Of a DNA stretch of 64,000 bases, positions 9,402 through 47,543 are shown piece by piece. The stretch comes from Celeribacter naphthalenivorans (GTDB lineage Bacteria; Pseudomonadota; Alphaproteobacteria; Rhodobacterales; Rhodobacteraceae), in assembly GCF_020524585.1 (NCBI RefSeq), contig NZ_JAIVLK010000004.1, positions 310,001 to 374,000 of the forward strand, written 5' to 3'. Position 1 is the first letter of the stretch, and each line of letters opens with the position of its first letter. Made by a program: the position numbers and the translations under genes. A model generated the notes under the pieces. That model was not told the DNA's origin and made no database searches. It saw nothing but the letters and a program-made list of their open reading frames with translations.

Positions 9402-9427
9402 GGCGGCGAGTCAGGCGAGCACATAGG

Positions 9428-10318: not shown

Positions 10319-10319
10319 C

Positions 10320-11023: not shown

Positions 11024-11056
11024 GCCAGAGCGCCTGAGCACCTGAGAGAGACACAG

Positions 11057-12756: not shown

Positions 12757-12759
12757 ACC

Positions 12760-14832: not shown

Positions 14833-14834
14833 TC

Positions 14835-16325: not shown

Positions 16326-16328
16326 GCC

Positions 16329-17816: not shown

Positions 17817-17842
17817 ATTTGAGCCAAGAAGAAAGACGAGAC

Positions 17843-31682: not shown

Positions 31683-32984
31683 ATGACACATTCGAAACGC
31701 CCCCGCTCCGGCGGGGTCTCCAGACGTGCCTTCACCGCAGGGCTTGCGAGCTTGCCTTTGCTGACGGCTGCGCGCGGGCTTATGGCCGCCGATGGCGCAC
31801 CGATCCGCATCGGTTTCATCTCGCCGCGCTCCGGGCCGCTGGCGGCCTTTGGCGAGGCCGATCCCTTTATCCTCGATCTGGTGCGCAAGGCCGTGGCAGA
31901 CGGCGTGTCCATCGGCGGTGAAACCCGCGAGATCGAAATTCTCGACCGCGACACGCAATCCGACCCGGCCCGCGCCGCCCAGCTTGCAAGCGATCTGATC
32001 AATGGCGAAGGCGTCCAGATCATCCTCGCCTCCTGCACGCCTGAGACCATCAACCCGGTGGCCGACGCCTGCGAGGCGGCGGGTGTGCCCTGTGTTTCGA
32101 CCGTCATGCCGTGGCAGGCGTTCTATTTTGGCCGTGGGGCGAAGCCCGGCGAGCCCAGCCCGTTCAAATATTCCTACCATTTCGGCTTTGGCGTCGATGA
32201 ATTTGCGCAGGCCTATATCTCGCAGTGGAACGCGCTCGACACCAACAAGAAGGTTGGCGTGCTCTATCCGAACGATGCCGATGGCAATGCCGTGCGCGCC
32301 ATGCTCGCGCCGCAACTTCAGGCCGCGGGGTTCGAGGTGTTCGATCCGGGCGCGTTTGAGAGCTTTACCTCCGATTACACCACGCAAATCCGCTATTTCC
32401 GCGAGAACGGCGTGGAGATCATCAATTCCTTCGCCCTGCCGCCGGATTTCGCCACTTTCTGGCGCCAGTCCGCGCAACAGGGGCTGAGCCGTCAGGTCAA
32501 GATCGTGCAGGTCGCCAAGACCGGCCTCTTCCAATCCGACATCGAGGCCATGGGCTCGCTCGGACCGAAACTCGCCTCCGCCGTTTATTGGCACCGCGAC
32601 ATGCCCTATAGCTCGCCCACCACGGGCCACAGCGCAGAAGCCCTCGCCGCCGCCTATGAGGCCGAAACCGGGCGGCAATGGATGCTGCAACTCGGGGCCT
32701 CTTTGGCGCTGTTTGACGTCGCCTTGGTCGCGCTCGATCAAAGCGGCGCGCCGATGGAGCGGGACGCCATCGCGACCGCGATCTCGCAGCTCAACGTCGA
32801 GACGGTGAACGGCAAGGTCGATTTCACCTCCGGCCCGGTGCCCAACGTGGCGCATGGTCCGATTCTCGGCTCGCAGTGGCAGCCGGTGGAGGGCAGTGGC
32901 TTTCCGCTCAGTCAGGTGCTGACCGAAAACGCCACCGATCCGAACGTGCCGGTGGCTGGCACGTTGATGCCCTATAACGGGTGA
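31683..32984 (+). CDS. Liv-type ABC importer binding protein (Tat-exported)
   Basis: Branched-chain-amino-acid-type SBP of 433 residues. A Tat signal is seen (SGGVSRRAFTAGLASLPLL, with processing near GLMAADG). Ligand-domain motifs are IRIGFISPRSGPLAAFGEA and VPCVSTVMPW. GGGAGGAA precedes ATG 31683; the frame is open upstream to 31521 but has no signal there. This class also binds short amides, urea and aromatics, so the ligand is open. It is the first gene of the operon that runs to the IclR gene. Confidence 0.9.
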   Translation: MTHSKRPRSGGVSRRAFTAGLASLPLLTAARGLMAADGAPIRIGFISPRSGPLAAFGEADPFILDLVRKAVADGVSIGGETREIEILDRDTQSDPARAAQLASDLINGEGVQIILASCTPETINPVADACEAAGVPCVSTVMPWQAFYFGRGAKPGEPSPFKYSYHFGFGVDEFAQAYISQWNALDTNKKVGVLYPNDADGNAVRAMLAPQLQAAGFEVFDPGAFESFTSDYTTQIRYFRENGVEIINSFALPPDFATFWRQSAQQGLSRQVKIVQVAKTGLFQSDIEAMGSLGPKLASAVYWHRDMPYSSPTTGHSAEALAAAYEAETGRQWMLQLGASLALFDVALVALDQSGAPMERDAIATAISQLNVETVNGKVDFTSGPVPNVAHGPILGSQWQPVEGSGFPLSQVLTENATDPNVPVAGTLMPYNG

Positions 32985-32988
32985 TGCC

Positions 32989-33747
32989 ATGGCACAGGTT
33001 AAAATGACGGAGGGGGCGCAGGCTGCGCCTCCCATTCTCTCCGTGTCGGGTCTCGGCAAATCCTTTGGCGCGGTGCATGCGCTCTCTGAGGTGAGTTTCG
33101 ATCTCAGGGCGGGCGAGGCGGTGGGCATCGTCGGTCCCAATGGGGCGGGCAAATCGACCTTTCTCGCCGCCCTCACCGGGGCTTTCGCGCCCTCGACGGG
33201 CACGATCTGGCTCGATGGGGCCGACGTGACCGGCACCCCCGCCGAGATCATGTGTCGACGCGGCGTGGTGCGCACGCATCAAATCCCGCGGCCCTTCGGG
33301 GGGCTGACGGTGTTCGAAAACGCCCGTCTCGCGGCGAGTTTTGGAGGGCCTGAAAATGGCGATGCCGATGCGCTGGCTTACGGTGCGCTCAAACTTTGCC
33401 GCATGTTGCCGCTGGCCAACACGCAGGCGGATCGGCTCGGGCTTTTGGATCGCAAACGTCTGGAAATGGCACGCGCTTTGGCGACCTCGCCGCGCGTGAT
33501 CCTGTTGGACGAAGTGGGCGGCGGGCTGACGGATGCCGAGGCCGAGGTGTTGGTCGAGATCATCCGCGAAATTCGCGCCTCGGGCTGTGCCATCGTCTGG
33601 ATCGAGCACATCGTGCATGTGTTGTTGCAGGTCTCCGAGCGGCTGATCTGCATGGATATGGGCCGGATTATCGCCGATGGCGATCCACAAGCGGTGATGC
33701 GCGATCCGGCTGTGATGGAAGCCTATCTGGGGCAGGGGGTGACATGA
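32989..33747 (+). CDS. Liv-type ABC importer ATPase (LivG type)
   Basis: ATPase of 252 residues. Walker A GPNGAGKST near residue 45, the signature region DRKRLEMARAL (no canonical LSGGQ is visible, although the segment is in place), Walker B VILLDEVGGGL and a C-terminal YLGQGVT. The expected LSGGQ is LGLLDRK here, a common LivG variation. The H-loop region is VWIEHIVHV. It starts five bases after the SBP gene and overlaps livF by ATGA. Confidence 0.9.
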   Translation: MAQVKMTEGAQAAPPILSVSGLGKSFGAVHALSEVSFDLRAGEAVGIVGPNGAGKSTFLAALTGAFAPSTGTIWLDGADVTGTPAEIMCRRGVVRTHQIPRPFGGLTVFENARLAASFGGPENGDADALAYGALKLCRMLPLANTQADRLGLLDRKRLEMARALATSPRVILLDEVGGGLTDAEAEVLVEIIREIRASGCAIVWIEHIVHVLLQVSERLICMDMGRIIADGDPQAVMRDPAVMEAYLGQGVT

Positions 33748-34499
33748 GCGTTCTCGAAATTTCCGATTTGACGGCCCGACACGGGCTTTTGAGCGCCGTC
33801 AAAGGCGTCTCCTTTTCCGTCGCGCCCGGCGAAGTGGTGGCTTTGGTCGGCGCCAATGGCGCGGGCAAATCCACGCTCTTGCGCTCCATCGCTGGCGCCC
33901 ATCAGGACCAAGGCGGCACGGTCACGCTCAAAGGCGAGGATCTCACCGGCTGCGACGCCCACAAACGGGTGCAGCGCGGTCTGGCGCTCGTGCCCGAGGG
34001 GCGCAAGCTCTTCAGCCAGATGAACGTCTGGGAAAACCTCTGTCTCGGGGCGCAGGTCGGGCGGTCCGGCGACTGGACGCCGGAGCGGGTTTTCGACGTG
34101 TTCGACAATCTGAACAAGCGCCGCTACTCGGCCTGTACGCACCTCTCCGGCGGCGAACAACAGGCGGTGGCCATCGGTCGCGCGCTGGTGAGCAACCCCG
34201 ATGTCATCATGCTCGATGAGGTCTCTCTGGGCCTGTCTCCCGCGATCGTCGACCGCGTCTATGCCGTTCTGCCGGAGCTGCGCGCTTCGGGCACCGGTGT
34301 CATCGTCGTCGAACAGGATCTTGGCCGTGCCATGTCGGTGGCGGATCGGGTGATTTGTATGCTGGAGGGCGAGATCGTCCTTCAGGGCCGCGCCGACAGC
34401 CTCTCCCGCGAGGAGATCATCGGCGCTTATTTCGGTCTTCCGCCCGGAGCACAGGGGTCTGAAGACCATGCCAATCCTGCCATGGGAGCCATGACATGA
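33744..34499 (+). CDS. Liv-type ABC importer ATPase (LivF type)
   Basis: ATPase of 251 residues from ATG 33744. Walker A GANGAGKST, signature LSGGEQQAVA, Walker B VIMLDEVSLGL, and VEQDL at the H-loop position as is typical of LivF. It is adjacent to the LivG-type gene, with which it should form a heterodimer. It overlaps the permease gene by ATGA. Confidence 0.92.
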   Translation: MSVLEISDLTARHGLLSAVKGVSFSVAPGEVVALVGANGAGKSTLLRSIAGAHQDQGGTVTLKGEDLTGCDAHKRVQRGLALVPEGRKLFSQMNVWENLCLGAQVGRSGDWTPERVFDVFDNLNKRRYSACTHLSGGEQQAVAIGRALVSNPDVIMLDEVSLGLSPAIVDRVYAVLPELRASGTGVIVVEQDLGRAMSVADRVICMLEGEIVLQGRADSLSREEIIGAYFGLPPGAQGSEDHANPAMGAMT

Positions 34500-35377
34500 T
34501 CGATATTCTGCTGCAGGGCGTCCTCTTGGGCGGCTACTACGCGCTTTTGGCCGTGGGCCTCGCGTTTCTCTATTCCATCATGGGGATCATCAACCTCGCG
34601 CATGGCTCTTTTGCCGTGCTCGCAGCCTATCTCGTCTTGGCGATGACCGACAGTCTGGGGATCAATGTCTGGCTTGCGGTGCTGGCCGTCTTGCCGATCA
34701 TGGCGGTGATCGGCGCGCTGGTGGATCGGTTGATTTTCGAGCCGGTGCAAAAGGGTGGACAGCTTTTGTCGGTGCTGGCGACCTTTGGGCTTTCGGTGGT
34801 GATCGACAATCTGATCTTTCAAATCTGGGGCGCCAACACGCGCACCCTGGCCAATGCTCTGGGCGATCTCGCCTGGGCGTCCTGGGAGATCGGCGGGCTT
34901 TGGGTTGGCAAGGTCTCGGTCTATATCCTCTTGGCCGCTGTCGGGCTTTTGACCGGGCTGACGCTCTTGATTGCGCGCACGCCTTTGGGCCGGGCGATCC
35001 GGGCCACCGCGACCGATCCGGACACGGCGGGGCTTGTCGGCGTCGATGCCCGGCGCGCCCGCACCATCGCCTCGGCTCTGGCCTTTGTCGCCATCGGCGT
35101 GGCGGGGGCGGCGCTTGGCATGCGCACCACATTCACGCCCTACGCCGGTGTGACCCAGCTTTTGTTTGCCTTTCAGGCGGCCGTCATAGGTGGGTCGACC
35201 TCCGTGCGCGGCACGCTCTTTGGCGGCATCACCTTGGGCCTTGCCCAGACCTTGGGCGCGACCATTCACACCCAGGGCTTTCTCATCGGCGGGCATCTCG
35301 TGTTCTTCGCGGCGCTGTTCCTGCGTCTGCAGTTCGGCACGCTGCGCCTGCCCAAGTTGCGGAGGGCTGCGGCATGA
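34496..35377 (+). CDS. Liv-type ABC importer permease (LivH type)
   Basis: Permease of 293 residues with eight or so hydrophobic helices. LivH hallmarks are seen: YYALLAVGLAFLYSIMGIIN at the start, NLAHGSF, RATATDPDTAGLVGVD (the cytoplasmic coupling loop) and GGSTSVRGTLFGG near the C-terminus. It overlaps the LivM-type gene by ATGA. Confidence 0.92.
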   Translation: MIDILLQGVLLGGYYALLAVGLAFLYSIMGIINLAHGSFAVLAAYLVLAMTDSLGINVWLAVLAVLPIMAVIGALVDRLIFEPVQKGGQLLSVLATFGLSVVIDNLIFQIWGANTRTLANALGDLAWASWEIGGLWVGKVSVYILLAAVGLLTGLTLLIARTPLGRAIRATATDPDTAGLVGVDARRARTIASALAFVAIGVAGAALGMRTTFTPYAGVTQLLFAFQAAVIGGSTSVRGTLFGGITLGLAQTLGATIHTQGFLIGGHLVFFAALFLRLQFGTLRLPKLRRAAA

Positions 35378-36468
35378 GCCTCTCGTCTTCTCTGTCCAAC
35401 CTTTCCACGGAGACTTCTCCCATGGCCCAAGCAACCACTGCCCCTTACCGCGTCCGTCGCTGGACCCCGCGGGCCAAGATCACTGTGCTGCTTTTCGCCG
35501 TCGCCGTCGCCGCTCTGGCACTGGCCCCGGCGGTCACCGGCGCGGCCTTTATGGACCGGGCGGTGGCGCTGTTTGTCTACATCCTTCTGGCCGTAACTTG
35601 GAACGCGCTGGCGGGGTACGCCGGGCAGGTCTCTGTCGGGCAACAGGGGTTCTTTGGCCTCGGCGCCTATGTCACCATCCGGCTCTCGGATGCAGGGCTG
35701 CCGGTCTTTCCCTCGCTCGTCGTTGCGGCTCTTGTCGTGGGGGCCATCGCGCTTCCGGTGAGTTTCGTCATGCTGCGGCTCAGGGAGGGCGAATTTGCCA
35801 TCGGCATGTGGGTGCTCGCGACGCTGTTTCATCTCCTCGTCAATCTCGATCCGCTCATTCAGGGCGAGACCGGCGTGTCGCTCATCGCGCTCAATGCGGT
35901 GCCTGCCGAGACCCGCAATCTGGTGATCTATCTCATGGCGCTGGTCTCCGCCGTCGCTGTGATCTCCGCCATGTTCCTCTTGCTGCGCTCGCGCATCGGG
36001 GCGGCGCTTCAGGCGATCCGCGATGACGAGGCGGCGGCGCATTCCGTAGGCGTCAATGTGGTCCGCACCAAACAGGTGATCTTTGTCTTCGCGGCCTTCG
36101 GCGCGGCGCTTGCCGGTGCGCTTTGGCTCGCGGGCAACGTAAGCTTTCAACCGAAAGCCTATTTCTCCGTGCAATGGATGGCCTATACGATTTTCATGGT
36201 CATCGTCGGCGGCATCGGCACCTTCGAAGGCGCGATTTTGGGCGCCGTGGTTTTTTTCCTCCTCGAAACCTTTCTGGGCGGCTACGGTGTCTGGTATCTT
36301 CTGGTGCTCGGGGCTTCGGCCATTGTCATGGCGCTTGGATTTCCGCAGGGCATCTGGGGTTATCTCTCATCGCGGCACGGCCTGTCTTTGGTGATGGTCG
36401 GGCGGCATCTTGAGGCGCCTGAGACCGAGAAGAGCGGGAAAGGATCGGGATGGAGCGCGGACGGGTGA
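35374..36468 (+). CDS. Liv-type ABC importer permease (LivM type)
   Basis: Permease of 364 residues from ATG 35374; ATG 35422 (MAQATTAPYRV) is another possible start. LivM motifs: GYAGQVSVGQQGFFGLGAY and the coupling loop QAIRDDEAAAHSVGVNV, then GGIGTFEGAILG. The stop lies 19 bases inside the IclR reading frame (overlap 36450-36468), so importer and regulator are one transcription unit. Confidence 0.92.
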   Translation: MSLSSSLSNLSTETSPMAQATTAPYRVRRWTPRAKITVLLFAVAVAALALAPAVTGAAFMDRAVALFVYILLAVTWNALAGYAGQVSVGQQGFFGLGAYVTIRLSDAGLPVFPSLVVAALVVGAIALPVSFVMLRLREGEFAIGMWVLATLFHLLVNLDPLIQGETGVSLIALNAVPAETRNLVIYLMALVSAVAVISAMFLLLRSRIGAALQAIRDDEAAAHSVGVNVVRTKQVIFVFAAFGAALAGALWLAGNVSFQPKAYFSVQWMAYTIFMVIVGGIGTFEGAILGAVVFFLLETFLGGYGVWYLLVLGASAIVMALGFPQGIWGYLSSRHGLSLVMVGRHLEAPETEKSGKGSGWSADG

Positions 36469-37322
36469 AACAGGTTCAGGTGAAATCCATTGAATCGCTT
36501 GCGCGCGGGCTGGAGGTGTTGCAACTCATCCAGGCCGCGGGCGCCGTCAGCCTGCACGATCTGCACCGCATGTCGGGCATTCCGAAGGCCTCGCTTTTGC
36601 GGATTCTGAAAACCTTGGCCGAGCGTGGCATGATCTGGCAACGCATCTTGGACGACCATTACATCCCGTCCTATTCCCTGTCCGAGCTGGCCAATCGGGT
36701 CGACCGCGAAACCCGTCTGGTCGAGGTCGCCTCGCCGGTTCTGGAGGCGCTGACGGGCGAGGTGAAATGGCCCTCTGTTTTGGCAGCGCCGCGTCTCACC
36801 TGTATGGAGGTGATCGAGGCCAACACGCCGCGCAGCTATTTTCACCACATCCCTCTCGGACCTTTGGGGTTTAAGATCAATATGTTGCGCTCCGCCACGG
36901 GGCGCGCCTACATCGCCTATTGCGAGGACGCCAAACGCGAGGCGATTTTGGATGCGCTGCGCCGCACGGGCCGCAAGGGCGATCTTATGGCTGCCGTGCC
37001 GGAGATGGTCGCCGAGGCCATCGCCATCACCCGTGAACAGGGGTTCGGTCTGCGCGATGCCGATTTTGGCGGCTCTTATGACGAGGGCCGCGCCAGCCAT
37101 GATGACGGCCGCGATTCCGTCGGTGTGCCGATTGTCGTCGGCTATTCCACCGTCGGCGCGATCAACATCACATGGGCCAAAAAAGTGCTGCCGCGTGCGC
37201 AGGCCATCGAACGCTTCGTCGGTCCGTTGCAAGAGGCGGCGCGTGAGATTTCCGAAGGCCTGATGGAGGCCCAGAACAGCTTTACCCAGCAAAGCGCGGG
37301 TCAGAAGAAAATCGCGCCATAA
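36450..37322 (+). CDS. IclR-family transcriptional regulator
   Basis: 290 residues. The N-terminal winged HTH has SIESLARGLEVLQLIQ followed by HDLHRMSGIPKASLLRILKT. The C-terminal effector domain has the usual EVIEANTPRSYFHHIPLG and RSATGRAYIAY motifs. It is the last gene of the importer operon and stands directly before the carboxylase genes. Three copies of TTTCAC-CCT-GTGAAA-like sites before the two gene blocks are likely its operators. Repressor or activator cannot be told from the sequence. Confidence 0.9.
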   Translation: MERGRVKQVQVKSIESLARGLEVLQLIQAAGAVSLHDLHRMSGIPKASLLRILKTLAERGMIWQRILDDHYIPSYSLSELANRVDRETRLVEVASPVLEALTGEVKWPSVLAAPRLTCMEVIEANTPRSYFHHIPLGPLGFKINMLRSATGRAYIAYCEDAKREAILDALRRTGRKGDLMAAVPEMVAEAIAITREQGFGLRDADFGGSYDEGRASHDDGRDSVGVPIVVGYSTVGAINITWAKKVLPRAQAIERFVGPLQEAAREISEGLMEAQNSFTQQSAGQKKIAP

Positions 37323-37498
37323 GATTTCAGTGCGAAGATTTCACCCTGAGAAACGTTGCGCCATAAAAATTTCACAGGGTGAAACTTTGGCCGCACGCGA
37401 TTGATGGGGCGGGGCACAGCGCCTAGCCTCAAACTGTAAGAAGACCCGCAGTGAAACGCACATCTCACAACGCGGGTCTCGAATGGGAGGATTACCGA
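37323..37498 (+). promoter_or_regulatory. Carboxylase operon promoter: two IclR-type sites and a leader hairpin
   Basis: Site A (TTTCACCCTGAGAAA, 37339-37353) has one mismatch to the core at 31540. Site B (37370-37384) reads TTTCACCCTGTGAAA on the minus strand. Their centres are 31 bases apart, about three helical turns, so both face the same side of the DNA. Downstream, AGACCCGC (37442-37449) and GCGGGTCT (37472-37479) form a perfect 8-bp stem with a 22-base loop, in the probable 5' untranslated region. GGGAGG at 37485-37490 is a ribosome binding site for the small frame at 37499. Confidence 0.65.
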
Positions 37499-37579
37499 AT
37501 GACCGCATTGAACACGCAATTTGCGTGCATGGCGACGCTGTGCCTGAACGTCCGTTTTGTGACGGAGGCCGGGGCATGA
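37499..37579 (+). CDS. 26-codon leader reading frame, translationally coupled to accB
   Basis: ATG 37499 has GGGAGG eight bases upstream and reads 26 codons (MTALNTQFAC...). Its stop TGA lies in the ATGA that starts accB (37576). The SD is much better than anything just before accB, where only GGAGGCCGGGGC is found. A leader peptide or coupling cistron is likely. A 7-bp palindrome, CACGCAA-T-TTGCGTG (37513-37527), lies inside it. No run of one amino acid suggests classical attenuation. Confidence 0.5.
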   Translation: MTALNTQFACMATLCLNVRFVTEAGA

Positions 37580-38049
37580 GCGCGCTGACACGACAAGACA
37601 TCAACGACATTCTCGCGCTGGTCGATCAATCCGATTTCGACGAACTGCGCCTTGAGATCGGCGACACCAAGATTGAGCTGCGCCGTCGCGGGGCGGGTCA
37701 ATCCGGGGTTGCTGCGCCTGTTGCCGAAGCGCCTGCGCCGCAAGTCGCGCCCACTCCGAAGCCGAGTGAGGCCACCCCGGTCGCGGCCCCTGTTGTCGCC
37801 TCCGGTGGCGGCTCCGAAGTGCCCGCGCCGCTTTTGGGCACCTATTATTCTGCGCCGAAACCGGGCGCTGCGCCATTCGTCAAAGTCGGCGATCGCGTCG
37901 AGCCGGACACGGTGATCGGCATCATCGAGGTGATGAAGCTGATGAACTCCGTCACCGCCGATGTGGCGGGCATCGTCACCGCGATCCATGCCGAAGACGG
38001 CGTGCTGGTCGAACATGGTCAGGCGCTGATCTCCGTTCAGCCGGAGTGA
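37576..38049 (+). CDS. Biotin carboxyl carrier protein (AccB-like)
   Basis: 157 residues. An AccB-type N-terminal helix (LTRQDINDILALVDQSDFDE) is followed by a Pro/Ala-rich linker (about residues 45-80) and a biotinyl domain. The biotinylated lysine is in EVMKLMN near residue 122. It carries the carboxyl group between the biotin carboxylase (38054) and the carboxyltransferase (39415). Whether it also serves the housekeeping acetyl-CoA carboxylase is unknown; its position suggests a dedicated carrier. Confidence 0.92.
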   Translation: MSALTRQDINDILALVDQSDFDELRLEIGDTKIELRRRGAGQSGVAAPVAEAPAPQVAPTPKPSEATPVAAPVVASGGGSEVPAPLLGTYYSAPKPGAAPFVKVGDRVEPDTVIGIIEVMKLMNSVTADVAGIVTAIHAEDGVLVEHGQALISVQPE

Positions 38050-38053
38050 ACCG

Positions 38054-39418
38054 ATGACCCCTATCAAACGAATTTTCATCGCCAATCGCGGCGAGATCGC
38101 CGTGCGTGTGATCAAGACCTGCCGCGCCTTGGGCATCGAAACCGTGCTGGGCGTCTCCGAGGCGGATCGCGACACTTTGGGCGCCAAATTGGCCACCCGC
38201 GCCGTCTGTCTGGGGCCCGCTCGGGCGACTGAAAGCTATCTCTCTGTCGGCACCGTCGTGGAGGCCGCGAAGGGCACCGGCTGTGACGCCATTCATCCGG
38301 GCTACGGCTTTCTCTCCGAGAACCGTGCGCTGGCCGAAGCCTGTGCCGAGGAGGGGATCGTCTTCATCGGCCCTGACCTGCCGCATCTCGACGCCGTGGG
38401 TGACAAGCTCACCGCGCGCAGCCATGCCGAAGCCGCCAAGGTGCCGCTGGTGCCGGGGGGCTCTGCCGAGACCGTGGAAGACGCCCGTAAGATCGCCGAA
38501 GAAATCGGATTTCCCTTGTTGATCAAGGCCGTATCCGGCGGCGGCGGACGCGGGATGAAACGTGTGGATCGGATGGAAGATCTGGAAAGTCAGCTTGATT
38601 TGGCGACCTCCGAGGCCGCCGCGGCCTTTGGCGACGGGCGGGTCTATCTCGAACGTTTCGTCACAGTCGGACGCCATGTCGAGGTGCAAATCCTCTCCGA
38701 TGGCGAAACGGTCCTGCACGTGGGCGAGCGCGATTGTTCGGTGCAGCGCCGCTATCAAAAGGTGATCGAGGAAGCCCCCGCGCCGGAACTGCCGAAAGCG
38801 CTCAGAGACGGGCTTTTGGCGGCGGCGGTGAAATTCGCCCGCCACCTTGGCTATCGCTCGCTGGGCACCGTTGAATTCCTCGTCGATATGGAGCGACAGA
38901 GCTTTTATTTTCTCGAAATGAACGCCCGGATTCAGGTCGAACATCCGGTGACGGAAATGATCTCCGGCCTCGATCTTGTGGCTGAACAAATCGCGGTGGC
39001 CGAGGGCAAGCCCATGACGCTCACGCAAGATGACATCCGCCTTACCGGTCATGCCATCGAATGTCGCCTCAACGCCGAAGACCTCGCCCATGAGTTCCGC
39101 CCCGCGCCGGGACGCGTCACTATGGCTTGGTTCCCGCCGATGGAGGGCCTTCGGGTCGACACCCATATGGTGCCCGGCGCGATGATCTCGCCCTATTACG
39201 ATTCCATGATCGCCAAGCTGATCGTCCATGCCGCCACCCGCGAAGAGGCGATGGACCGGATGCTCAAGGCGCTCGATGTCTGTGTGCTTGAAGGCGTGAA
39301 AACCAACGCGCCGCTGCATCATGCGATCCTCTCCGAGGGTGAATTTCGCGCCGGCGGAGTCGATACGACCTACCTGCCGCGTTTCCTTGAACTTCATGGC
39401 GCGGAGGTTTGCCAATGA
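38054..39418 (+). CDS. Biotin carboxylase subunit (AccC-like)
   Basis: ATP-dependent carboxylation of biotin on BCCP. It has 454 residues. Motifs: KRIFIANRGEIAVRVI at the N-terminus, the glycine-rich loop SGGGGRGMKRV (ATP lid), RDCSVQRRYQKVIEEAPAP, and EMNARIQVEHPVTEMI with catalytic Glu and Arg. It is a stand-alone subunit of the acetyl-/pyruvate-carboxylase type. It overlaps the carboxyltransferase gene by ATGA. Confidence 0.93.
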   Translation: MTPIKRIFIANRGEIAVRVIKTCRALGIETVLGVSEADRDTLGAKLATRAVCLGPARATESYLSVGTVVEAAKGTGCDAIHPGYGFLSENRALAEACAEEGIVFIGPDLPHLDAVGDKLTARSHAEAAKVPLVPGGSAETVEDARKIAEEIGFPLLIKAVSGGGGRGMKRVDRMEDLESQLDLATSEAAAAFGDGRVYLERFVTVGRHVEVQILSDGETVLHVGERDCSVQRRYQKVIEEAPAPELPKALRDGLLAAAVKFARHLGYRSLGTVEFLVDMERQSFYFLEMNARIQVEHPVTEMISGLDLVAEQIAVAEGKPMTLTQDDIRLTGHAIECRLNAEDLAHEFRPAPGRVTMAWFPPMEGLRVDTHMVPGAMISPYYDSMIAKLIVHAATREEAMDRMLKALDVCVLEGVKTNAPLHHAILSEGEFRAGGVDTTYLPRFLELHGAEVCQ

Positions 39419-40878
39419 GCCTGTCCCTGATCGACACCACGCTGCGCGACGGCAACCAGAGCCTCTGGGGCGCCACGGGCCTCGACACCGCGCAGATGCT
39501 GCAAATCGCGCCGGTCATGGACCGCGTTGGCTATGAGGCGATTGATTTCTCGACCTCGACCCACATGGCCGTCGCTGTGCGGTTCACCAAGGAAGACCCT
39601 TGGGAGCGTCTGTCCCTGATGCGCGAGGCCATGCCGGAGACGCCGTTGTCGTTTTTGACGACGGGGATGCGGTTCATCTCTTGGGAGGTGGCCAGTCATG
39701 AGTTGATGGAATTTGCCTTCCGTCTTTTGGTCAATCGCGGCATCCGGCGGTTTGCCGTCATGGACCCGATGAACAACATCTCTGCCATGACCACCATGGC
39801 CGATCTGACGCGCAAGGCCGGGGGGGAAAGCATCGTCGCGGCGCTGACCTTTACGCTCTCGCCGTTGCATGACGATGCGCATTTCGCCAAAGCTGCCGAG
39901 GCGCTGGCGAACTCCGGAAAGTTCGACCGGCTTTACCTCAAAGACCCCGGCGGGCTTGTCTCCGCCGAGCGTGCCGCGACGCTGTTTCCGGCGCTGCGCA
40001 AGGCGGTCGGTCAGATGCCTTTGGAGTTCCATTCGCATTCCACCATCGCGCTCGCGCAGTTTTCCTATCTGGAGGCCGCGGGGCAGGGCGTCGATTGCCT
40101 TCACACGGCCTCGGCGGCGGCCGCCAACGGGACGTCGCAACCCGCCGTCGCCTCGACGTTGCGCAACCTGCGCGACATGGGGGTGCGCGTCGATGTGGAT
40201 GATGAGGCCATCGCCGAGATCGACACTTATTTCAGCGCGCTGGCGCAGGCCGAGGGGCTGAGCCACGGTCAGCCGCAGGAATTCGACCGCAGCTATTTCC
40301 GCCACCAGATGCCCGGCGGCATGATGGGGACGCTGAAACGGCAATTGTCAGAAACCAAACGCCTGCATCTTTTGCCGCAGGTGCTCGAAGAGGTCGAACG
40401 CGTCCGCGCCGATCTCGGCTATCCGATCATGGTCACGCCGTTTTCGCAGGTGGTCGGCACGCAGGCGCTTTTGAACGTCATTGGCGGCGAGCGCTATTCG
40501 ACCATCCCCGACGAGGTGGTGCGCTATGCTTTGGGGCGTTTTGGGCAACCGGCGATGCCGATGGACAGCGCGCTTGAGGACCGGATCAAAAGCTCGAAAC
40601 GCGCGAAAGAACTGACCGAAGAGCCGCATATGGCCTCGCTCGACGAGCTGCGCGCCAAGATCGGCAAGGACCTGTCGGACGAGGAATTCCTGCTCCGCGC
40701 CGTGATGCCCGCCGAACAGGTCGACGCCATGAAGGCCGCCGGTCCCGCGCGCCGGGGCTATGACCCGAGCACCCGGCCCACGGTCGATCTGATCCGCGAG
40801 CTGACGTCGCGGCGCGATTTGGGGGAGGTGAAATTGTCCAAACCCGGTCTCACTCTTGAACTGAAAGGAGGCCGCTGA
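39415..40878 (+). CDS. Biotin-dependent carboxyltransferase (PycB/OadA-like), acceptor unknown
   Basis: 487 residues from ATG 39415 with GGAGG seven bases upstream. HMGL-type TIM barrel: metal Asp in IDTTLRDGNQSLW, the metal HxH in FHSHST near residue 205, and a Lys in RLYLKDPGG near residue 180, the position of the carbamylated metal-bridging lysine in pyruvate carboxylase. The C-terminal domain (MPGGMMGTLKRQL, IMVTPFSQVVGTQA) is the PycB/OadA type. Differences from pyruvate carboxylase include RDGNQSLWGAT for RDAHQSLLAT, FLTTGMRF in place of the LLRGAN segment, and HSHST for HTHDT. These lie around the acceptor site, so the acceptor may not be pyruvate or oxaloacetate. Confidence 0.85.
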   Translation: MSLSLIDTTLRDGNQSLWGATGLDTAQMLQIAPVMDRVGYEAIDFSTSTHMAVAVRFTKEDPWERLSLMREAMPETPLSFLTTGMRFISWEVASHELMEFAFRLLVNRGIRRFAVMDPMNNISAMTTMADLTRKAGGESIVAALTFTLSPLHDDAHFAKAAEALANSGKFDRLYLKDPGGLVSAERAATLFPALRKAVGQMPLEFHSHSTIALAQFSYLEAAGQGVDCLHTASAAAANGTSQPAVASTLRNLRDMGVRVDVDDEAIAEIDTYFSALAQAEGLSHGQPQEFDRSYFRHQMPGGMMGTLKRQLSETKRLHLLPQVLEEVERVRADLGYPIMVTPFSQVVGTQALLNVIGGERYSTIPDEVVRYALGRFGQPAMPMDSALEDRIKSSKRAKELTEEPHMASLDELRAKIGKDLSDEEFLLRAVMPAEQVDAMKAAGPARRGYDPSTRPTVDLIRELTSRRDLGEVKLSKPGLTLELKGGR

Positions 40879-41735
40879 TGGACGGTCGTTCTCTGAATGT
40901 CGCGGTCTTCGACATCGACGGCACGCTGGCGATGATGGACAAGGCGAAAGGCACCTATGAGGCGCTTCCGGGCGCGATCCGCGCGATGGAGATTTGTCGC
41001 GAAGCGGGTATGGATGTCTGGGCCTACACCAACGGGACGTTCTTCACGCCGGAGCATTACTACCCGCGTCTGGCCGATGCCGGAATCGTTTTGGACGAAG
41101 GCCGCGTGATGACGCCCGCCAGCGTGGCGGCGCATCACCTGCACCAGACCGGGCACAAACGTGTGATGGTTCTGGGGGCTGAAGGCACGGTGGAGCCGAT
41201 GCGGGCTGCGGGGTTTGATGTTGTTGTCGCCGGAGAAGAGACCGGAGATGAGGCGCGCGACGTGGACGCCGTTCTGGTCGGCTGGGCACGGGATTTCAAC
41301 CTCGCGCAACTCACCTCCATGGTCGAAGCGGTCTGGGAGGGCGCGATGCCCTATTCCGTCTCGGATGCCCCCTATTTCGCGGGCGCAAAGGGCCGCGTGT
41401 TGGGGGTCTCTGGCTCGGTCGGAGCAATGATCGCTCACACCAGCGGCGTCGAGCCGACGGTGATCGGCAAGCCCGCGCCCTGGGGGCTTGAGATGATCGC
41501 CGAGCAAACCGGTGTGGCCGCGCGCAACATGGTGGTGATCGGCGACGATCCGAAACTCGAAATTCGCATGGGCCGGGTCGGGGGCGCCATCACCGTGGGC
41601 GTCACCACCGGGATCGCACAGCGTCACGATTTTCTTGCTGCCCCGCCCGACTGGCGCGCCGACATCGTATTGAAAAGCCTTGAAGAATTCGAAGCGCAAG
41701 ACTGGCTCTTTGCGCAGGAGGAGAGCCTGACATGA
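40878..41735 (+). CDS. HAD-superfamily (NagD-like, subfamily IIA) hydrolase
   Basis: 285 residues. HAD motif I VFDIDGTLA, motif II TNGTFF, motif III lysine in IGKPAPWGLE, and motif IV GDDPKLEIRMG. The cap between motifs II and III is the class C2a type. It is probably a phosphatase, but the substrate is not evident; in this operon it might act on a phosphorylated side product or intermediate. It overlaps the carboxyltransferase and the CoA-ligase genes at both ends. Confidence 0.88.
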   Translation: MDGRSLNVAVFDIDGTLAMMDKAKGTYEALPGAIRAMEICREAGMDVWAYTNGTFFTPEHYYPRLADAGIVLDEGRVMTPASVAAHHLHQTGHKRVMVLGAEGTVEPMRAAGFDVVVAGEETGDEARDVDAVLVGWARDFNLAQLTSMVEAVWEGAMPYSVSDAPYFAGAKGRVLGVSGSVGAMIAHTSGVEPTVIGKPAPWGLEMIAEQTGVAARNMVVIGDDPKLEIRMGRVGGAITVGVTTGIAQRHDFLAAPPDWRADIVLKSLEEFEAQDWLFAQEESLT

Positions 41736-43750
41736 CCACGCAGACCGATATTCTCTGGACCGCGCCGGCGGCCCGTCATGCCGCAGCCAATGCCACGAAA
41801 CTTTTGGACTGGCTGGCCGGACAGGGTCTGGCCTTCGACGATTACGATGCCATGCTTGCATGGTCGATTGACGAACCGGAGGTTTTTTGGCGTCAGCTTT
41901 GGGCCTATTTTGATGTGATCCATGATGGCGAGATCAAAGAGGTGATGAGCGCCGACCCGATGCCCGACACGCGCTGGTTCACCGGCACCAAGCTCAACTA
42001 CGCCGAACATGTGCTGCGGCTCGAAGAGGCGGGCGATCCGGCCCGCGTGATGCTACATCACTCGTCCGAGTTGCGGCCCCATGCGACGATGAGCTGGGGG
42101 GAGGTTGGGTCCGCCGTACGGAAACTGGCGACCAAGCTGCGCGCCATGGGCCTCGGCGAGGGCGATTGCGTTGCCGCCTATATGCCCAACATCCCGGAGG
42201 CGGTGATCGCCATGCTCGCGACCACGGCCATTGGCGCCACATGGTCCTCTGCTGCGCCCGAGTTCGGTGCGCAGACGGTGATCGACCGCTTCGGTCAGAT
42301 CGCGCCGAAACTGGTGTTTGCGGCCAATGGCTATCGCTACGGCGGCAAGGATTTCGACCGCACCGAAGACCTCGCGATGATCCTCGCGGCGCTGCCCGAG
42401 GCGCGCGATTTGGTGATGCTCGACTACCAACCGACGGCGGCCAAGGCCCCGGCGTTCGATGGCACGATCCACACCTGGGACGACATGCTCTCCGGTGCGG
42501 AAGTGACCCGCGAGGCCTTCACCTACACCCGTGTGGCGTCCGATCATCCGCTTTGGGTGTTGTTCTCCTCGGGCACGACCGGCCTGCCGAAACCCATCGT
42601 GCATGGGCATCATGGCATCGTGGTCGAGCACCTGAAATCCGCGGCAGTGCATTTCGATCTGAAGCCCTCCGACACGCTGTTTTTCTATTCCACCACAGGC
42701 TGGATGATGTGGAACACGCTGATGTGGGGGCCGCTCATGGGCGCCTCCGCCGTGCTTTACGATGGACACCCGGCTTTTCCCGAAATCACCTCGCTCTTTG
42801 AGCTGGCCGAGACCACCGGTGCGACCGTCTTCGGTACAAACCCGACGTTTTTGCAGATCGTCAAACAGCAAGGCATCGTGCCGAAAGAGCGCTTTGATCT
42901 CTCAGCCCTGCAATCCGTCATGCTGGTCGGTTCGCCCGCCACGCCGGAGGTGTTTGAGTGGGTCTACGCCAACGTCAAATCCGATCTCTGGGTCACCTCG
43001 CAATCGGGCGGGACGGAGTTCTGTTCGGGCATTCTCGCCGGTGCGCCGATCCAGCCGGTGCGCGCGGGCGTGATCCAGTCGCGCGGCCTCGCCACCGATG
43101 CGCAGGCCTTTTCCGAGGCGGGTGAGCCGCTGACCGATGAGGTGGGCGAATTGGTGATCCGCAAGCCGATGCCCTCGATGCCGCTGTTCTTTTGGGGCGA
43201 CGACGGGAATGCGCGCTACCGGTCGAGCTATTTCGAACGCTTCCCGGGTGTTTGGACCCATGGCGACCGGGTGGTGTTCCACGAGGACGGAACGTGTTTG
43301 GTGCTCGGGCGCTCGGACGCGACGCTCAACCGCTTTGGCGTGCGCATCGGCTCGGCGGAGATTTACCGCACGGTCGACAGTTTCGAGGGCGTTAAGGACA
43401 GCCTCATCGTCTGTGTCGAGGACGGGCAGGGCGGCTATTTCATGCCGCTGTTTTTGGAGTTGGCCGAGGGCGTGGCGCTGACCGACGAGCTGATCGGCGC
43501 GATCCGCACGACGCTGCGCAAGGATCGCAGTCCGCGCCATGTGCCGGATGTGATTTTGCAGGCGCCGGAAATTCCGCTGACGCTGACGGGCAAGAAAATG
43601 GAAGTGCCTGTGCGCAAACTCCTTTTGGGCGCGGCCATGGCGGATGTGGCGAGCGAAGGCGCAACCCGCAATCCCCACGCCCTGCGCTGGTTCGCGGACT
43701 ATGCCGCCGACTGGCGCGAAACCCAATCACGCGAGGAGGAACGCGCATGA
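41732..43750 (+). CDS. Acetoacetyl-CoA synthetase (acetoacetate-CoA ligase)
   Basis: 672 residues, the usual length of AacS. It activates acetoacetate or another beta-keto acid to its CoA thioester with ATP. Motifs of the adenylate-forming family: LFSSGTTGLPKPIVH near residue 270, TTGWMMWN, QSGGTEFCS, the hinge GRSDATLNRFGVRIG and a C-terminal LTGKKMEVPVRKLLLG with the catalytic lysine. The long N-terminal part (WFTGTKLNYAEH) is diagnostic. In this operon the substrate may be the carboxylation product. Confidence 0.93.
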   Translation: MTTQTDILWTAPAARHAAANATKLLDWLAGQGLAFDDYDAMLAWSIDEPEVFWRQLWAYFDVIHDGEIKEVMSADPMPDTRWFTGTKLNYAEHVLRLEEAGDPARVMLHHSSELRPHATMSWGEVGSAVRKLATKLRAMGLGEGDCVAAYMPNIPEAVIAMLATTAIGATWSSAAPEFGAQTVIDRFGQIAPKLVFAANGYRYGGKDFDRTEDLAMILAALPEARDLVMLDYQPTAAKAPAFDGTIHTWDDMLSGAEVTREAFTYTRVASDHPLWVLFSSGTTGLPKPIVHGHHGIVVEHLKSAAVHFDLKPSDTLFFYSTTGWMMWNTLMWGPLMGASAVLYDGHPAFPEITSLFELAETTGATVFGTNPTFLQIVKQQGIVPKERFDLSALQSVMLVGSPATPEVFEWVYANVKSDLWVTSQSGGTEFCSGILAGAPIQPVRAGVIQSRGLATDAQAFSEAGEPLTDEVGELVIRKPMPSMPLFFWGDDGNARYRSSYFERFPGVWTHGDRVVFHEDGTCLVLGRSDATLNRFGVRIGSAEIYRTVDSFEGVKDSLIVCVEDGQGGYFMPLFLELAEGVALTDELIGAIRTTLRKDRSPRHVPDVILQAPEIPLTLTGKKMEVPVRKLLLGAAMADVASEGATRNPHALRWFADYAADWRETQSREEERA

Positions 43751-44520
43751 CAACCGCTCAAAAGATTTTCGATGTCACCGGAAAGGTGGCCTTTATCACC
43801 GGCGCGGGTTCCGGACTTGGTCGCGCGATGGCCGAGGTGCTGGCCGCCAATGGGGCGAAGCTCGTGCTTTTCGATGTGAGCGCCAAGGGGCTTGAGGCCA
43901 CCGCCTCCGCGCTGGGCGCGACCGAGGTGGAAACCGTGGTCGGCGATGTCTCGGACGAGGCCGCCGTCGAGGGTGTCATCGCCACCTGTATCACGCGGTT
44001 CGGTCGGCTCGACATCGCCTGCGCCAACGCGGGCATCGCCGATCCGGAGCCCGCGCGGTTGGACGGTTACAAGAGCGAGAACTGGCATAAGACGGTCGGG
44101 ATCAACCTCGACGGCGTGTTCTATGTGAACCGCGCCGCGATCCGCGAGATGCTCAAAACGGGTGGCGGTAAGGTGATCAACACCGCCTCCATGTGGGGGC
44201 TTGCGGGCGCGGCCGCTGTTGCGCCGCTTCCGGCCTATACCGCGACCAAGGGCGCGGTAGTGAACCTGACGCGCGAGCTGGGTCTGGAGTATGCGAAAGA
44301 CAACGTGCAGGTGAACGCGATCTGTCCGGGCTTTTTCGACACCGCCATTGGCGATCCGAACGATCCGGAGTTTGCCAAGGCGACCGTCGCGTTCACCCCC
44401 ATGGGCCGCACCGCCAAGGCGGAGGAGATCATGGGATCTGTGCTCTATCTCGCCTCCTCTGCGTCGGATTTCGTCACGGGCACCAGTCTCGTGATCGACG
44501 GCGGCTGCGCGGCACGCTGA
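43747..44520 (+). CDS. Short-chain dehydrogenase/reductase
   Basis: SDR of 257 residues. NAD(P)-binding TGAGSGLGRAM, CANAGIAD, catalytic YTATKGA near residue 160, and PGFFDTAIGD after it. It overlaps the CoA-ligase gene by ATGA. A beta-hydroxyacid or beta-hydroxyacyl-CoA substrate would fit the neighbouring ligase; that is inference. Confidence 0.9.
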   Translation: MTTAQKIFDVTGKVAFITGAGSGLGRAMAEVLAANGAKLVLFDVSAKGLEATASALGATEVETVVGDVSDEAAVEGVIATCITRFGRLDIACANAGIADPEPARLDGYKSENWHKTVGINLDGVFYVNRAAIREMLKTGGGKVINTASMWGLAGAAAVAPLPAYTATKGAVVNLTRELGLEYAKDNVQVNAICPGFFDTAIGDPNDPEFAKATVAFTPMGRTAKAEEIMGSVLYLASSASDFVTGTSLVIDGGCAAR

Positions 44521-44531
44521 GGGAGGATGAG

Positions 44532-45281
<750 letters not shown>

Positions 45282-45314
45282 TCCGCTAATATGAACATGT
45301 TCAGGGAGGAAAAC

Positions 45315-46571
45315 ATGGCTGAACATCACGCACAAACGACGGGCGCCTCGCGTCCGAAGGTTCTGATGATTGTCACTCAGGACACCAAACAGGAGGAGGC
45401 AAAATACCTCCGCGAGATCCTCGAAGGGGCGGGCGTGGATGTCATCCATCTCGACCCCTCCGTGCGCAAGGTGGTGGGCGGCGCCGAGATCGGCCCCGAA
45501 GATATCGCCGCCGCGACCGGCAAAACGCTGGCCGATGTCCGCGCCATTCACCACGAGGGCAAAATTCTCGACAAGATGATCGAGGGCGCCGTGGCCTGCG
45601 CGTTGGCCGTGCATGAGAAAACGCCGATCTCCGGTATTCTCTCCATCGGCGGCTCCATGGGCACCACCATGGGCACCACCGTGATGCGCGCCTTTCCCTA
45701 CGGGATGCCAAAGATGATGATCTCGACGCTGGCCTCCGGCATGACCGCAGGCTTCGTGGGCGTCAAAGACATCTGCATGCTCAATTCGGTCTGCGACATT
45801 TCCGGCCTGAACTCGATCTCCCACGATGTGTACCGCAACGGCGCGCTGGCTGTCGCGGGCATGGCGAAGGGCTATGAACCGATCCATTCGGGCGAGAAAC
45901 CTTTGGTTCTGGTCTCGACATTGGGCACGACCGAGGCCTGTTCGCGCCGGGTGCGCGAGGGGCTTGAGGCCGATGGCTTTGAGGTCATGGTGTTCCACAC
46001 CACCGGCAATGGCGGGCGGACGCTTGAGACCATCTGTGCCGAGCGCGATGTGGCCGCCGTCGTCGATATGTCTCTGGTCGAGATCAATGATTTCCTGCGC
46101 GGTGGGATGTGCGCCGTGGGGCCGGACCGCGCCGCGACCGCCGTGCAAAAGGGCATCCCCGTGGTCTTTGCCCCCGGCAATGTGGATTTCTACATCATGC
46201 CCTCGCAGCTTGCGGTCGGCGCCGCGCCGTTCGAGGGCCGGGGCTATCACGTCCACAACAGCGCGCTCACGGCCGTGCGCACCACGGAAGAGGATCTGAT
46301 GCATCTGGCCGATCACATGGCCGAGATCATCAAGGGGGCGACCGGTCCGGTGCGGTTCTTTGTGCCGCGCAAAGGCTTTTCGCATCACGACAGCCCGGAT
46401 GGCCCGCTGCCGCGTCCGAACCTGCCGCCGGTGTTTGAGGCGCAATGCAAAGAGGCCTTCGGCGATTATGCCCCGGTCGAAGGCATTGATGGCCACATCA
46501 ACGATCCGGTCTTTGCCGATGCGCTTTTGGCGGCCGTGCGCGAGGTGACGCGCGTGCCGGCGATGGCGTAA
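45315..46571 (+). CDS. Tm-1-like ATP-binding protein (UPF0261)
   Basis: 418 residues from ATG 45315 with GGGAGGA just before it. The N-terminal half matches the Tm-1/UPF0261 family (VLMIVTQDTKQEEAKYLREI, LSIGGSMGTTMGTTVMRAFP, PKMMISTLASGM, DICMLNSVCDISGLN). The C-terminal half continues the same family (TTGNGGRTLETI, FAPGNVDFYIMP). The family is present in many bacteria and in the tomato Tm-1 resistance protein. Its chemical role is unknown. In many genomes it precedes a TIM-barrel protein; here it precedes an amidohydrolase. Confidence 0.9.
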   Translation: MAEHHAQTTGASRPKVLMIVTQDTKQEEAKYLREILEGAGVDVIHLDPSVRKVVGGAEIGPEDIAAATGKTLADVRAIHHEGKILDKMIEGAVACALAVHEKTPISGILSIGGSMGTTMGTTVMRAFPYGMPKMMISTLASGMTAGFVGVKDICMLNSVCDISGLNSISHDVYRNGALAVAGMAKGYEPIHSGEKPLVLVSTLGTTEACSRRVREGLEADGFEVMVFHTTGNGGRTLETICAERDVAAVVDMSLVEINDFLRGGMCAVGPDRAATAVQKGIPVVFAPGNVDFYIMPSQLAVGAAPFEGRGYHVHNSALTAVRTTEEDLMHLADHMAEIIKGATGPVRFFVPRKGFSHHDSPDGPLPRPNLPPVFEAQCKEAFGDYAPVEGIDGHINDPVFADALLAAVREVTRVPAMA

Positions 46572-46610
46572 CGCCTTCCTCCTTGCAAAGATCACACCTG
46601 CAAAAACCAC

Positions 46611-46636
46611 ACCGGGCGCGGTGCGCTGCGCCCGGT
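46611..46636 (+). other. GC-rich hairpin between Tm-1-like and amidohydrolase genes
   Basis: ACCGGGCGC (46611-46619) pairs with GCGCCCGGT (46628-46636) around eight bases. There is no T tract, so partial termination or mRNA processing is more likely than a full stop. Confidence 0.5.
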
Positions 46637-46667
46637 CCTATTCCTCACACGACAGACTGAAAGACCG

Positions 46668-47543
46668 ATGGTAGATTTTTCCAGCGTCCGCGCGATTGAT
46701 TTTCACACCCATGCCGAGGAGGCCTGCGGCTGTCACCACGATGACGGCTATGACGATCTGCAATCCGCGATGGCGAAATATTTCAACGCGCCCTGGGCCC
46801 ATCCGCCGACCATCGACCAAACCGCCGCGCATTACCGCGAGAAAAACATCGCCGCGGTGATTTTCCCGGTCGATGCCGAGCGCGAGACGGGCTATCGCCG
46901 CTACGACAATTACGAGGTCGCCGACGCCGCCGCGAAACACTCCGACATCCTCATTCCCTTCGCCTCGATCGATCCCGCGAAAGGCAAATTGGGCGCCCGC
47001 GAGGCGCGCGATCTGGTGGAGAACCACGGCATTCAGGGCTTTAAATTCCACCCGACGATGCAGGGGTTTTATCCGAACGACCGGAGCGCCTATGTGCTCT
47101 ATGAGGCCATCGCCGAGGCGGGAAAACCGGCGCTGTTTCACACCGGCCAGACGGGCGTCGGATCGGGGATGAAGGGCGGCAACGGCATGCGGCTGAAATA
47201 CTCGAATCCGATGTATATGGACGACCTGGCGGTGGATTTTCCCGACATGCCGATCATCCTCGCGCACCCGTCTTTTCCGTGGCAGGAGGAGGCCCTGTCG
47301 GTCGCGACCCACAAGCCGAATGTCTACATCGACCTCTCCGGCTGGTCGCCGAAATACTTCCCGCCGATTCTGGTGCGTTACGCGAATACTTTGTTGAAAA
47401 ACAAGATGTTGTTCGGCTCCGACTGGCCAATGATCGCGCCGGAGAAATGGCTTGATGCTTTTGACAAAGCGGAGTTCCGCGACGAGGTGCGGCCTTTGAT
47501 TTTGAAGGGAAATGCGATGCGGTTGTTGGGGGTTACGACGTAA
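46668..47543 (+). CDS. Amidohydrolase (amidohydrolase_2/ACMSD-like family)
   Basis: Metal-dependent TIM-barrel hydrolase or decarboxylase of 291 residues. The first metal site HxH is in DFHTHAEE near residue 13. FKFHPTMQGF, LFHTGQTG, ILAHPSFPW and FGSDWPMIAP supply further ligands. The family includes decarboxylases (ACMSD, gamma-resorcylate) and lactonases. It is the last gene of the carboxylase block. Its stop overlaps the stop of the convergent molybdoenzyme gene in TTACGACGTAA. Confidence 0.88.
   Translation: MVDFSSVRAIDFHTHAEEACGCHHDDGYDDLQSAMAKYFNAPWAHPPTIDQTAAHYREKNIAAVIFPVDAERETGYRRYDNYEVADAAAKHSDILIPFASIDPAKGKLGAREARDLVENHGIQGFKFHPTMQGFYPNDRSAYVLYEAIAEAGKPALFHTGQTGVGSGMKGGNGMRLKYSNPMYMDDLAVDFPDMPIILAHPSFPWQEEALSVATHKPNVYIDLSGWSPKYFPPILVRYANTLLKNKMLFGSDWPMIAPEKWLDAFDKAEFRDEVRPLILKGNAMRLLGVTT

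Follow-up and report, generated by a model that had tools for sequence, protein, structure and literature searches.

Known pathways and the Celeribacter cluster

The hydroxyphenylethanone (Hpe) pathway of Rhodococcus rhodochrous GD02, encoded by the gene set hpeHICBADEF, is a described counterpart of the gene cluster analyzed here, a biotin carboxylase operon in a 64,000-nucleotide stretch of the Celeribacter naphthalenivorans genome (G000:C4:310001-374000, below called the window; genome of 4.36 Mb, 99.96% complete). In that pathway, the three-part biotin carboxylase HpeCBA accepts 4-phospho-acetophenone and 4-phospho-acetovanillone, whereas the free phenols are not carboxylated. HpeD is described as a phosphatase resembling NagD, and the closest relatives of HpeE and HpeF are a Sinorhizobium AcsA2 and CouO, respectively (Dexter et al. 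2022, PMC9618137). An excerpt of PMC4737184 places CouO in the amidohydrolase superfamily. The dikinase HpeHI is described in PMC12167813. The Acv system of Sphingobium SYK-6 (acvABCDEF, vceAB) and XccABC of Aromatoleum aromaticum EbN1, which belongs to anaerobic ethylphenol and 4-hydroxyacetophenone use, are homologous to Hpe (PMC9618137), and a very similar pathway of Novosphingobium aromaticivorans with the single-component kinase MarK (Hall et al. 2025, J Biol Chem 301:110606) is described in PMC13101465.

The window resembles Hpe of GD02 in combining, within one operon, a three-subunit biotin carboxylase, a NagD-like phosphatase, an AcsA-like ligase, and a CouO-like amidohydrolase (PMC9618137). 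It differs by a single UPF0261 protein where Hpe has the two-component HpeHI, and by importer and short-chain dehydrogenase/reductase (SDR) genes, neither of which is among the eight listed genes of the Hpe cluster. The kinase, carboxylase, and phosphatase set is shared with Acv, but Acv, as far as excerpts of PMC9618137 describe it, has a two-component kinase and uses VceA/VceB, with no homologues of HpeE/HpeF; genes of the HpeE/HpeF type are present in the window. XccABC is a homologous three-subunit carboxylase, but it serves an anaerobic pathway and is clustered with hpeHI homologues, the two-component kinase type (PMC9618137). With the MarK pathway, as outlined in PMC13101465, the window has a predicted single-component kinase in common.

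We propose, with a probability of about 0.86, that the cluster is a MarK-type version of the Hpe/Acv pathway for 4-hydroxyaryl methyl ketones and serves to degrade aromatic ketones of the lignin type. A ketone such as 4-hydroxyacetophenone would be imported, or an SDR would produce it from the secondary alcohol; a phosphate would be placed on the phenol oxygen by the UPF0261/Tm-1-like kinase; and the biotin carboxyl carrier protein (BCCP), the biotin carboxylase subunit (BC), and the carboxyltransferase (CT) would carboxylate the phosphorylated ketone at its acetyl methyl group with CO2 derived from bicarbonate, spending one ATP. The beta-keto acid would then be dephosphorylated by the HAD phosphatase, the acetoacetyl-CoA-synthetase-type ligase would form the beta-ketoacyl-CoA, and the amidohydrolase would split it into acetyl-CoA and 4-hydroxybenzoate, to be finished by PobA and the pca genes. 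The exact substrate, the roles of the SDRs, and the cargo of the importer are guesses in this scheme.

A preliminary description of this DNA had seen in it a possible new carboxylation route and knew of no described pathway with such an arrangement. Since Hpe (GD02), Acv (SYK-6), Xcc (EbN1), and MarK (N. aromaticivorans) have been published, we correct this to a known but rare route: the chemistry is already known, and what this cluster adds is a new, complete member that includes an ABC importer. Out of 836 cases, only 52 have the kinase and carboxylase genes clustered together (Hall et al., cited in an excerpt of PMC13101465), making the arrangement uncommon but known. A narrow combined-term literature search for biotin-dependent ketone carboxylases found none.

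Organization of the locus

The pathway genes occupy 36450-47543, all on the + strand, in the order IclR regulator, BCCP, BC, CT, HAD phosphatase, ligase, SDR1, SDR2, UPF0261/Tm-1, and amidohydrolase (Table 1). From BCCP through Tm-1, adjacent genes overlap by 4 bases or 1 base or are separated by gaps of 4-11 bases; the HAD gene, between those of CT and ligase, shares 1 base with the former, and the amidohydrolase gene starts 96 bases past the Tm-1 gene. As the preliminary description had it, BCCP, BC, and a PycB-like CT share an operon with a ligase of the acetoacetyl-CoA-synthetase type, all four being uninterrupted open reading frames (ORFs) with strong family matches, and the SDR (43747-45281), Tm-1, and amidohydrolase genes that it grouped with them are present, all just beyond its interval of 37576-43750. 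It had left out the HAD/NagD phosphatase, the IclR regulator, and the Liv-type importer, and had given the Tm-1 protein no role. The same region in Celeribacter sp. PS-C1 (L008; L and G numbers are our handles for loci and genomes) shows 95-99% protein identity, with a CT 98% identical.

The carboxyltransferase belongs to an Hpe-type clade

CT homologues were drawn from 28 GTDB contigs, further genomes, and plasmids, and the resulting tree has 47 rows. Six of 149 genomes sampled at family level had a CT match at E <= 1e-60, three of them (C. naphthalenivorans included) with at least 73% identity; at class level, 11 of 385 had a match at E <= 1e-75, and besides the C. naphthalenivorans genome only G391 and G472 were taken further. 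A CT match was present in 23 plasmid records, and 11 of these were opened (H1, H2, H5, H6, H8, H9, H11, H12, H15, H19, H21).

A plasmid locus of Rhodococcus sp. JS3073 (L044) was used as a stand-in for the published hpe cluster on the basis of gene set and masses. Its order is kinase-kinase-BCCP-BC-CT-HAD-ligase-amidohydrolase, and the predicted HpeH, HpeI, BC, CT, and HAD proteins have 70.5, 39.6, 49.5, 57.5, and 31.3 kDa, against published values of 71.2, 40.6, 49.3, 57.4, and 30.2 kDa. PMC9618137 labels HpeA, the third carboxylase gene, as the biotin carboxylase (57.4 kDa) and HpeB, the second, as the carboxyltransferase (49.3 kDa); from the sizes and the L044 order, we read these labels in reverse (HpeB as BC, HpeA as CT).

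The window CT and the L044 CT fall together in a clade of 36 rows (support 100/99), or 37 members with the L025 CT, which was left out of the tree because a contig end cuts it. Three pyruvate carboxylase (PC)/OadA rows split off with 100/100 support, and the other CT lineages outside the clade show 36-40% identity. This placement bears out the earlier suspicion that the CT lies outside PC and OadA, as does the acceptor site, already described as altered: in the alignment, PC/PycB/OadA rows read M-L-[LF]-R-[GA]-[QS]-N and the window reads F-L-T-T-G-M-R-F-I-S-W, so that a T replaces the Arg of L-R-G-Q-N and the PC/OadA-alpha signature is missing. This Arg has a part in pyruvate binding. The motif TG[MFL]RF[IM][SA]W was found in 37/37 clade members and 0/11 other rows. 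All 37 clade CTs retain RDG, K-D, and H-x-H; by analogy with PC and 5S structures, K-D belongs to the metal/biotin site and H-x-H supplies metal ligands.

With L044 as proxy for GD02 and EbN1, the window enzyme is thus predicted to be an HpeCBA-type three-subunit biotin carboxylase. An ordinary pyruvate carboxylase or oxaloacetate decarboxylase, or parts of a housekeeping acetyl-CoA carboxylase misread as a pathway, is hardly credible here. Such a reading can point to the best NCBIfam match of the CT, 'pyruvate carboxylase subunit B' (336 bits, below the cut-off of 402), and to the BCCP passing the AccB model, but it conflicts with the separation of the PC/OadA rows, with the different acceptor-site residues, and with the presence of a PC-type gene at a separate locus (L002). 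Moreover, four further biotin carboxylase homologues in the genome (43-51% identical to the window BC) leave a separate housekeeping biotin carboxylase available.

Distant CT/BCCP/BC sets (36-39% identity) were also seen in L056 and L057; in Caballeronia the genes near by include those for acetoacetate decarboxylase and carbonic anhydrase as well as biotin genes, and in Sulfitobacter a TRAP transporter.

A phosphatase gene accompanies the carboxyltransferase gene

In all 35 testable clusters of the 37-member clade, the CT is followed by a homologue of the window HAD protein, L011 being counted although its match is partial and lies where the contig stops; the two others, L025 and L035, lie on contigs that end 2 and 90 bases past the CT. 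Beside the CTs of eight distant non-PC/OadA loci (L034, L038, L039, L040, L045, L055, L056, L057), where window-HAD homologues alone were sought, there was none. The D-x-D-G motif is intact in 34/34 aligned HADs; the L021 copy is truncated, and a split interrupts the second half of the L023 copy. The NagD-like phosphatase, as in the Hpe pathway, is therefore likely to be part of the carboxylase system.

These results bear on the acceptor. In the preliminary description, carboxylation of some ketone or keto acid yields a beta-keto acid that would then be activated with CoA. Our scheme retains the beta-keto acid product and its CoA activation; a free, unphosphorylated acceptor is improbable. A CT without the Arg of the LRGQN motif and a ligase family that works on beta-keto acids would suit it, but the constantly linked phosphatase, the MarK-type kinase, and the membership in the HpeCBA-type clade argue against it, and free phenolic ketones are not substrates of HpeCBA itself (PMC9618137). 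A phosphorylated hydroxyaryl ketone is most probably the acceptor. Carboxylation of acetone or another aliphatic ketone was rejected, since a phosphatase and a kinase make no sense for such a substrate.

Locus L045 (Rhodococcus oxybenzonivorans pRB98) carries a different annotated phosphatase: its CT, 38% identical, is accompanied by phosphoenolpyruvate (PEP)-utilizing/dikinase genes, an AMP-binding protein, a thiolase, and a tyrosine-phosphatase-type gene, perhaps for an analogous carboxylation of a phosphorylated substrate. Together with weak HpeH matches in L038, L045, and L055, this annotation suggests that phosphorylation may extend beyond the Hpe-type CT clade.

A putative MarK-type kinase in place of HpeHI

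The window Tm-1 protein is 53% identical (212/400) to PDB 9mpy_A, the UPF0261-domain protein Saro_1862 of N. aromaticivorans with bound acetovanillone. The same entry was the best match by sequence and by Foldseek (E 1.1e-38), the latter obtained with a poor AlphaFold model (four sequences, mean pLDDT 65.4) that was used solely to reach PDB titles. Judging from the 9mpy title and from the title and author list of the paper, Saro_1862 is almost certainly MarK, and the window protein is accordingly a candidate MarK-type UPF0261 kinase. Tomato Tm-1 has the same overall fold and family at ~26-29% identity; in the excerpt of PMC5028733 it inhibits tomato mosaic virus (ToMV) replication.

HpeHI was not found within the window, and the whole genome gave 0 HpeI-type matches (E <= 1e-30) and 0 PPDK_N matches, leaving it without a recognizable two-component dikinase of the HpeHI/AcvAB kind. 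Among the 37 clade clusters (stretches of 5-25 kb each, 64 kb for the window), HpeH and/or HpeI homologues occur in 21, a MarK-type Tm-1 in seven (window, L008, L009, L013, L042, L043, L054), both in none, and neither in nine. Across 32 whole genomes, with full-length PEP synthases (~800-codon frames) excluded from the HpeI count, 26 had an HpeI-type and six a MarK-type protein, two having both and two neither (Fisher p = 0.0056, only indicative because the genomes were picked for carrying the CT rather than at random, the rows are related, and G538 and G543 were scored HpeI-positive on partial or broken matches).

In three plasmid clusters (L042, L043, and L054), those of S. bisphenolicum AO1, P. 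putida YC-AE1, and N. humi, the Tm-1 gene lies directly upstream of BCCP, the position held by HpeHI in L026-L033, L035, L041, L044, L051, and L052. Given this placement and the 9mpy match, the idea of the Tm-1 protein as an unrelated bystander was dropped; that of an undescribed kinase has been overtaken by the MarK literature. Among titles and abstract openings since 2017 on UPF0261, Tm-1-like proteins, or 9MPY, none concerned aromatic catabolism. Mapped onto the CT tree, the MarK/HpeHI label requires a minimum of three changes, at least two being forced by well-supported branches, and a constraint of the seven MarK rows to one clade was rejected (p-AU 7e-58, with L044 and some others on long branches). 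As the MarK-carrying CTs are not one clade, the kinase types have replaced each other more than once.

A second UPF0261 protein in the genome (L050, G000:C3:198970-200166) is 32% identical to that of the window and may have a function other than that of MarK; its neighbors are presumably aminotransferase-like.

Downstream enzymes and the choice of substrate

The ligase and the amidohydrolase are 42% and 55% identical to their L044 counterparts and would correspond to HpeE and HpeF, on family membership; the next-best homologue of the ligase in the genome (E <= 1e-30) is only 27% identical to it. An outlet for 4-hydroxybenzoate through protocatechuate to ring cleavage is encoded in the genome: a 4-hydroxybenzoate 3-monooxygenase gene (pobA) lies at C1:215133 (TIGR02360, 632.5 bits; cut-off 538.7), with PcaG (219.3 bits; cut-off 126.25) and PcaH (338.1; 296.4) within 4 kb of it, in one 8 kb stretch. 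In L010 and L012, the amidohydrolase gene is found beside a 4-hydroxybenzoate hydroxylase gene; the L010 hydroxylase passes TIGR02360, and that of L012 is 90% identical to it.

A less likely, though serious, alternative keeps the enzyme chemistry and assigns it to another natural hydroxyaryl ketone, such as a polar phenolic of marine or plant origin taken up by the Liv-type importer, with 4-hydroxyacetophenone a mere analogue. An SDR2 gene directly precedes the MarK-type gene in the window, L008, L009, L013, and L049, with an importer near each (the importer set lies near the cluster in L008, L009, and L013, and in L049 beside IclR, SDR2, and the kinase), and between window-type and other Rhodobacterales clusters the HAD proteins are only ~55% identical, the CTs 75%. 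However, HAD identity is no higher inside the window-type set (55%, 3 pairs) than between the sets (55%, 30 pairs), the 4-hydroxybenzoate route is present in the genome, and the amidohydrolase, whose expected substrate is the aromatic beta-ketoacyl-CoA, shares 82% identity with the copy adjoining the 4-hydroxybenzoate hydroxylase gene in L010.

An SDR1 homologue directly follows the ligase or phosphatase gene in L008-L010, L017, L019, L022, L024, L036, and L037. In six related Rhodobacterales loci (L010, L014, L015, L018, L020, L022), further genes lie on the strand opposite the carboxylase genes: 6/6 have HpeHI homologues there together with a 2Fe-2S ferredoxin, an HD-like protein (c5), and an SDR, 5/6 also have an aldehyde dehydrogenase (c6) and 5/6 an HD-domain protein (c7), and 3/6 have a cytochrome P450 (c9).

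Relatives on plasmids of bisphenol A strains

Two of the Tm-1-BCCP-BC-CT-HAD operons are on plasmids, L042 on pBAR1 of S. bisphenolicum AO1 (5579-12348) and L043 on a P. putida YC-AE1 plasmid (4626-13216); one has 3-keto-5-aminohexanoate-cleavage-type and thioesterase genes, the other acetoacetyl-CoA synthetase and amidohydrolase genes. Strain AO1 is, to judge by its name, tied to bisphenol A degradation. YC-AE1 has been studied in bisphenol A degradation and, in a statement given by its authors as 'data not shown', fully removed p-hydroxyacetophenone as sole carbon source (excerpt of PMC9733184). The L042 and L043 operons may explain 4-hydroxyacetophenone use by bisphenol A strains.

Points that weigh against the proposed pathway

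Several observations count against a MarK-type Hpe/Acv pathway in the window. Every catalytic step is transferred from characterized homologues, the comparison with Hpe and Xcc runs through the proxy L044 instead of the GD02 and EbN1 sequences themselves, and the equation of Saro_1862 with MarK comes from titles and an author list. The window HAD protein scores 93.6 bits with TIGR01460, the nearest NCBIfam model, under its cut-off of 100.15. A MarK-type gene occurs alongside HpeHI in Pararhodobacter aggregans (G542) and in G548, and in G542 it adjoins a P450 gene, apart from the carboxylase cluster. For SYK-6, the authors proposed another reaction order, according to an excerpt of PMC13101465, and the excerpt of PMC9733184 names a '4-hydroxyacetophenone hydrolase' for YC-AE1.

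Features of the window

The importer genes lie upstream of the pathway genes (Table 1), and the names of the ATPases and permeases are partly our assumption. Downstream, a molybdopterin oxidoreductase gene (47533-49818, - strand) is convergent with the amidohydrolase gene and overlaps its end by 11 bases. A large [NiFe] hydrogenase and maturation cluster occupies 1-18868; 6614-8404 gives a NiFeSe_Hases match, and the other genes are presumably hydrogenase and maturation genes from the look of their ORF starts.

Table 1 Genes of the putative ketone pathway in the window, with a MarK-type gene of another genome
Feature	Position	Strand	Evidence
Liv/HAAT-type ABC importer, whole set	31782-36468	+	directly upstream of IclR/carboxylase genes
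Importer substrate-binding protein	31782-32984	+	Peripla_BP_6 match (made with longer frame from 31521)
Importer ATPases, two	32989-33747, 33744-34499	+	ORFs; name from sequence reading
Importer permeases, two	34496-35377, 35374/35422-36468	+	ORFs; name from sequence reading
IclR-family regulator	36450-37322	+	family match; homologue (at least 40% identity) in 21/37 clade stretches
BCCP, HpeC-like	37576-38049	+	TIGR00531, 122.7 bits (cut-off 115.2); biotin Lys121 in EVMKLMN
Biotin carboxylase subunit	38054-39418	+	Biotin_carb_N, CPSase_L_D2, Biotin_carb_C
CT, Hpe-type clade	39415-40878	+	PYC_OADA match; tree; motif TG[MFL]RF[IM][SA]W
HAD-IIA/NagD-type phosphatase, HpeD-like	40878-41735	+	Hydrolase_6 and Hydrolase_like above cut-off; DIDGT (residue 12), GKP (197), GDDP (222)
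Acetoacetyl-CoA-synthetase-family acyl-CoA ligase, HpeE-like	41732-43750	+	TIGR01217, 723.5 bits (cut-off 520.9)
SDR oxidoreductase 1, likely secondary-alcohol dehydrogenase	43747-44520	+	family matches
SDR oxidoreductase 2	44532-45281	+	family matches
UPF0261/Tm-1-like protein, putative MarK-type aromatic kinase	45291-46571	+	53% identity to PDB 9mpy_A
Amidohydrolase_2, HpeF/CouO-like putative beta-ketoacyl-CoA hydrolase	46668-47543	+	PF04909; no NCBIfam match
P. aggregans MarK-type gene and P450	L048 (G542) 7805-10299		MarK-type gene 70% identical; genome also with HpeI

Implications

A bolder extension, which we consider doubtful, is that the kinase has been repeatedly exchanged between HpeHI and UPF0261/MarK and that the window form, which has an IclR regulator, a pair of SDRs, and a Liv-type importer of its own, is a specialized Rhodobacterales island for uptake and degradation of a hydroxyaryl ketone distinct from the lignin monomers that have been studied to date. 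In databases, the pathway is masked by names such as 'acetyl-CoA carboxylase', 'biotin carboxyl carrier protein' (for the CT), 'acetoacetate--CoA ligase', and 'hypothetical protein'. The window would hold the whole route in one stretch, from importer to CouO-type hydrolase and with a single-component kinase, making it a complete and well-bounded example. In such clusters, the Tm-1/UPF0261 gene gains a concrete putative role as an aromatic kinase, and the gene set is tied to the plasmids of two bisphenol A-linked strains.

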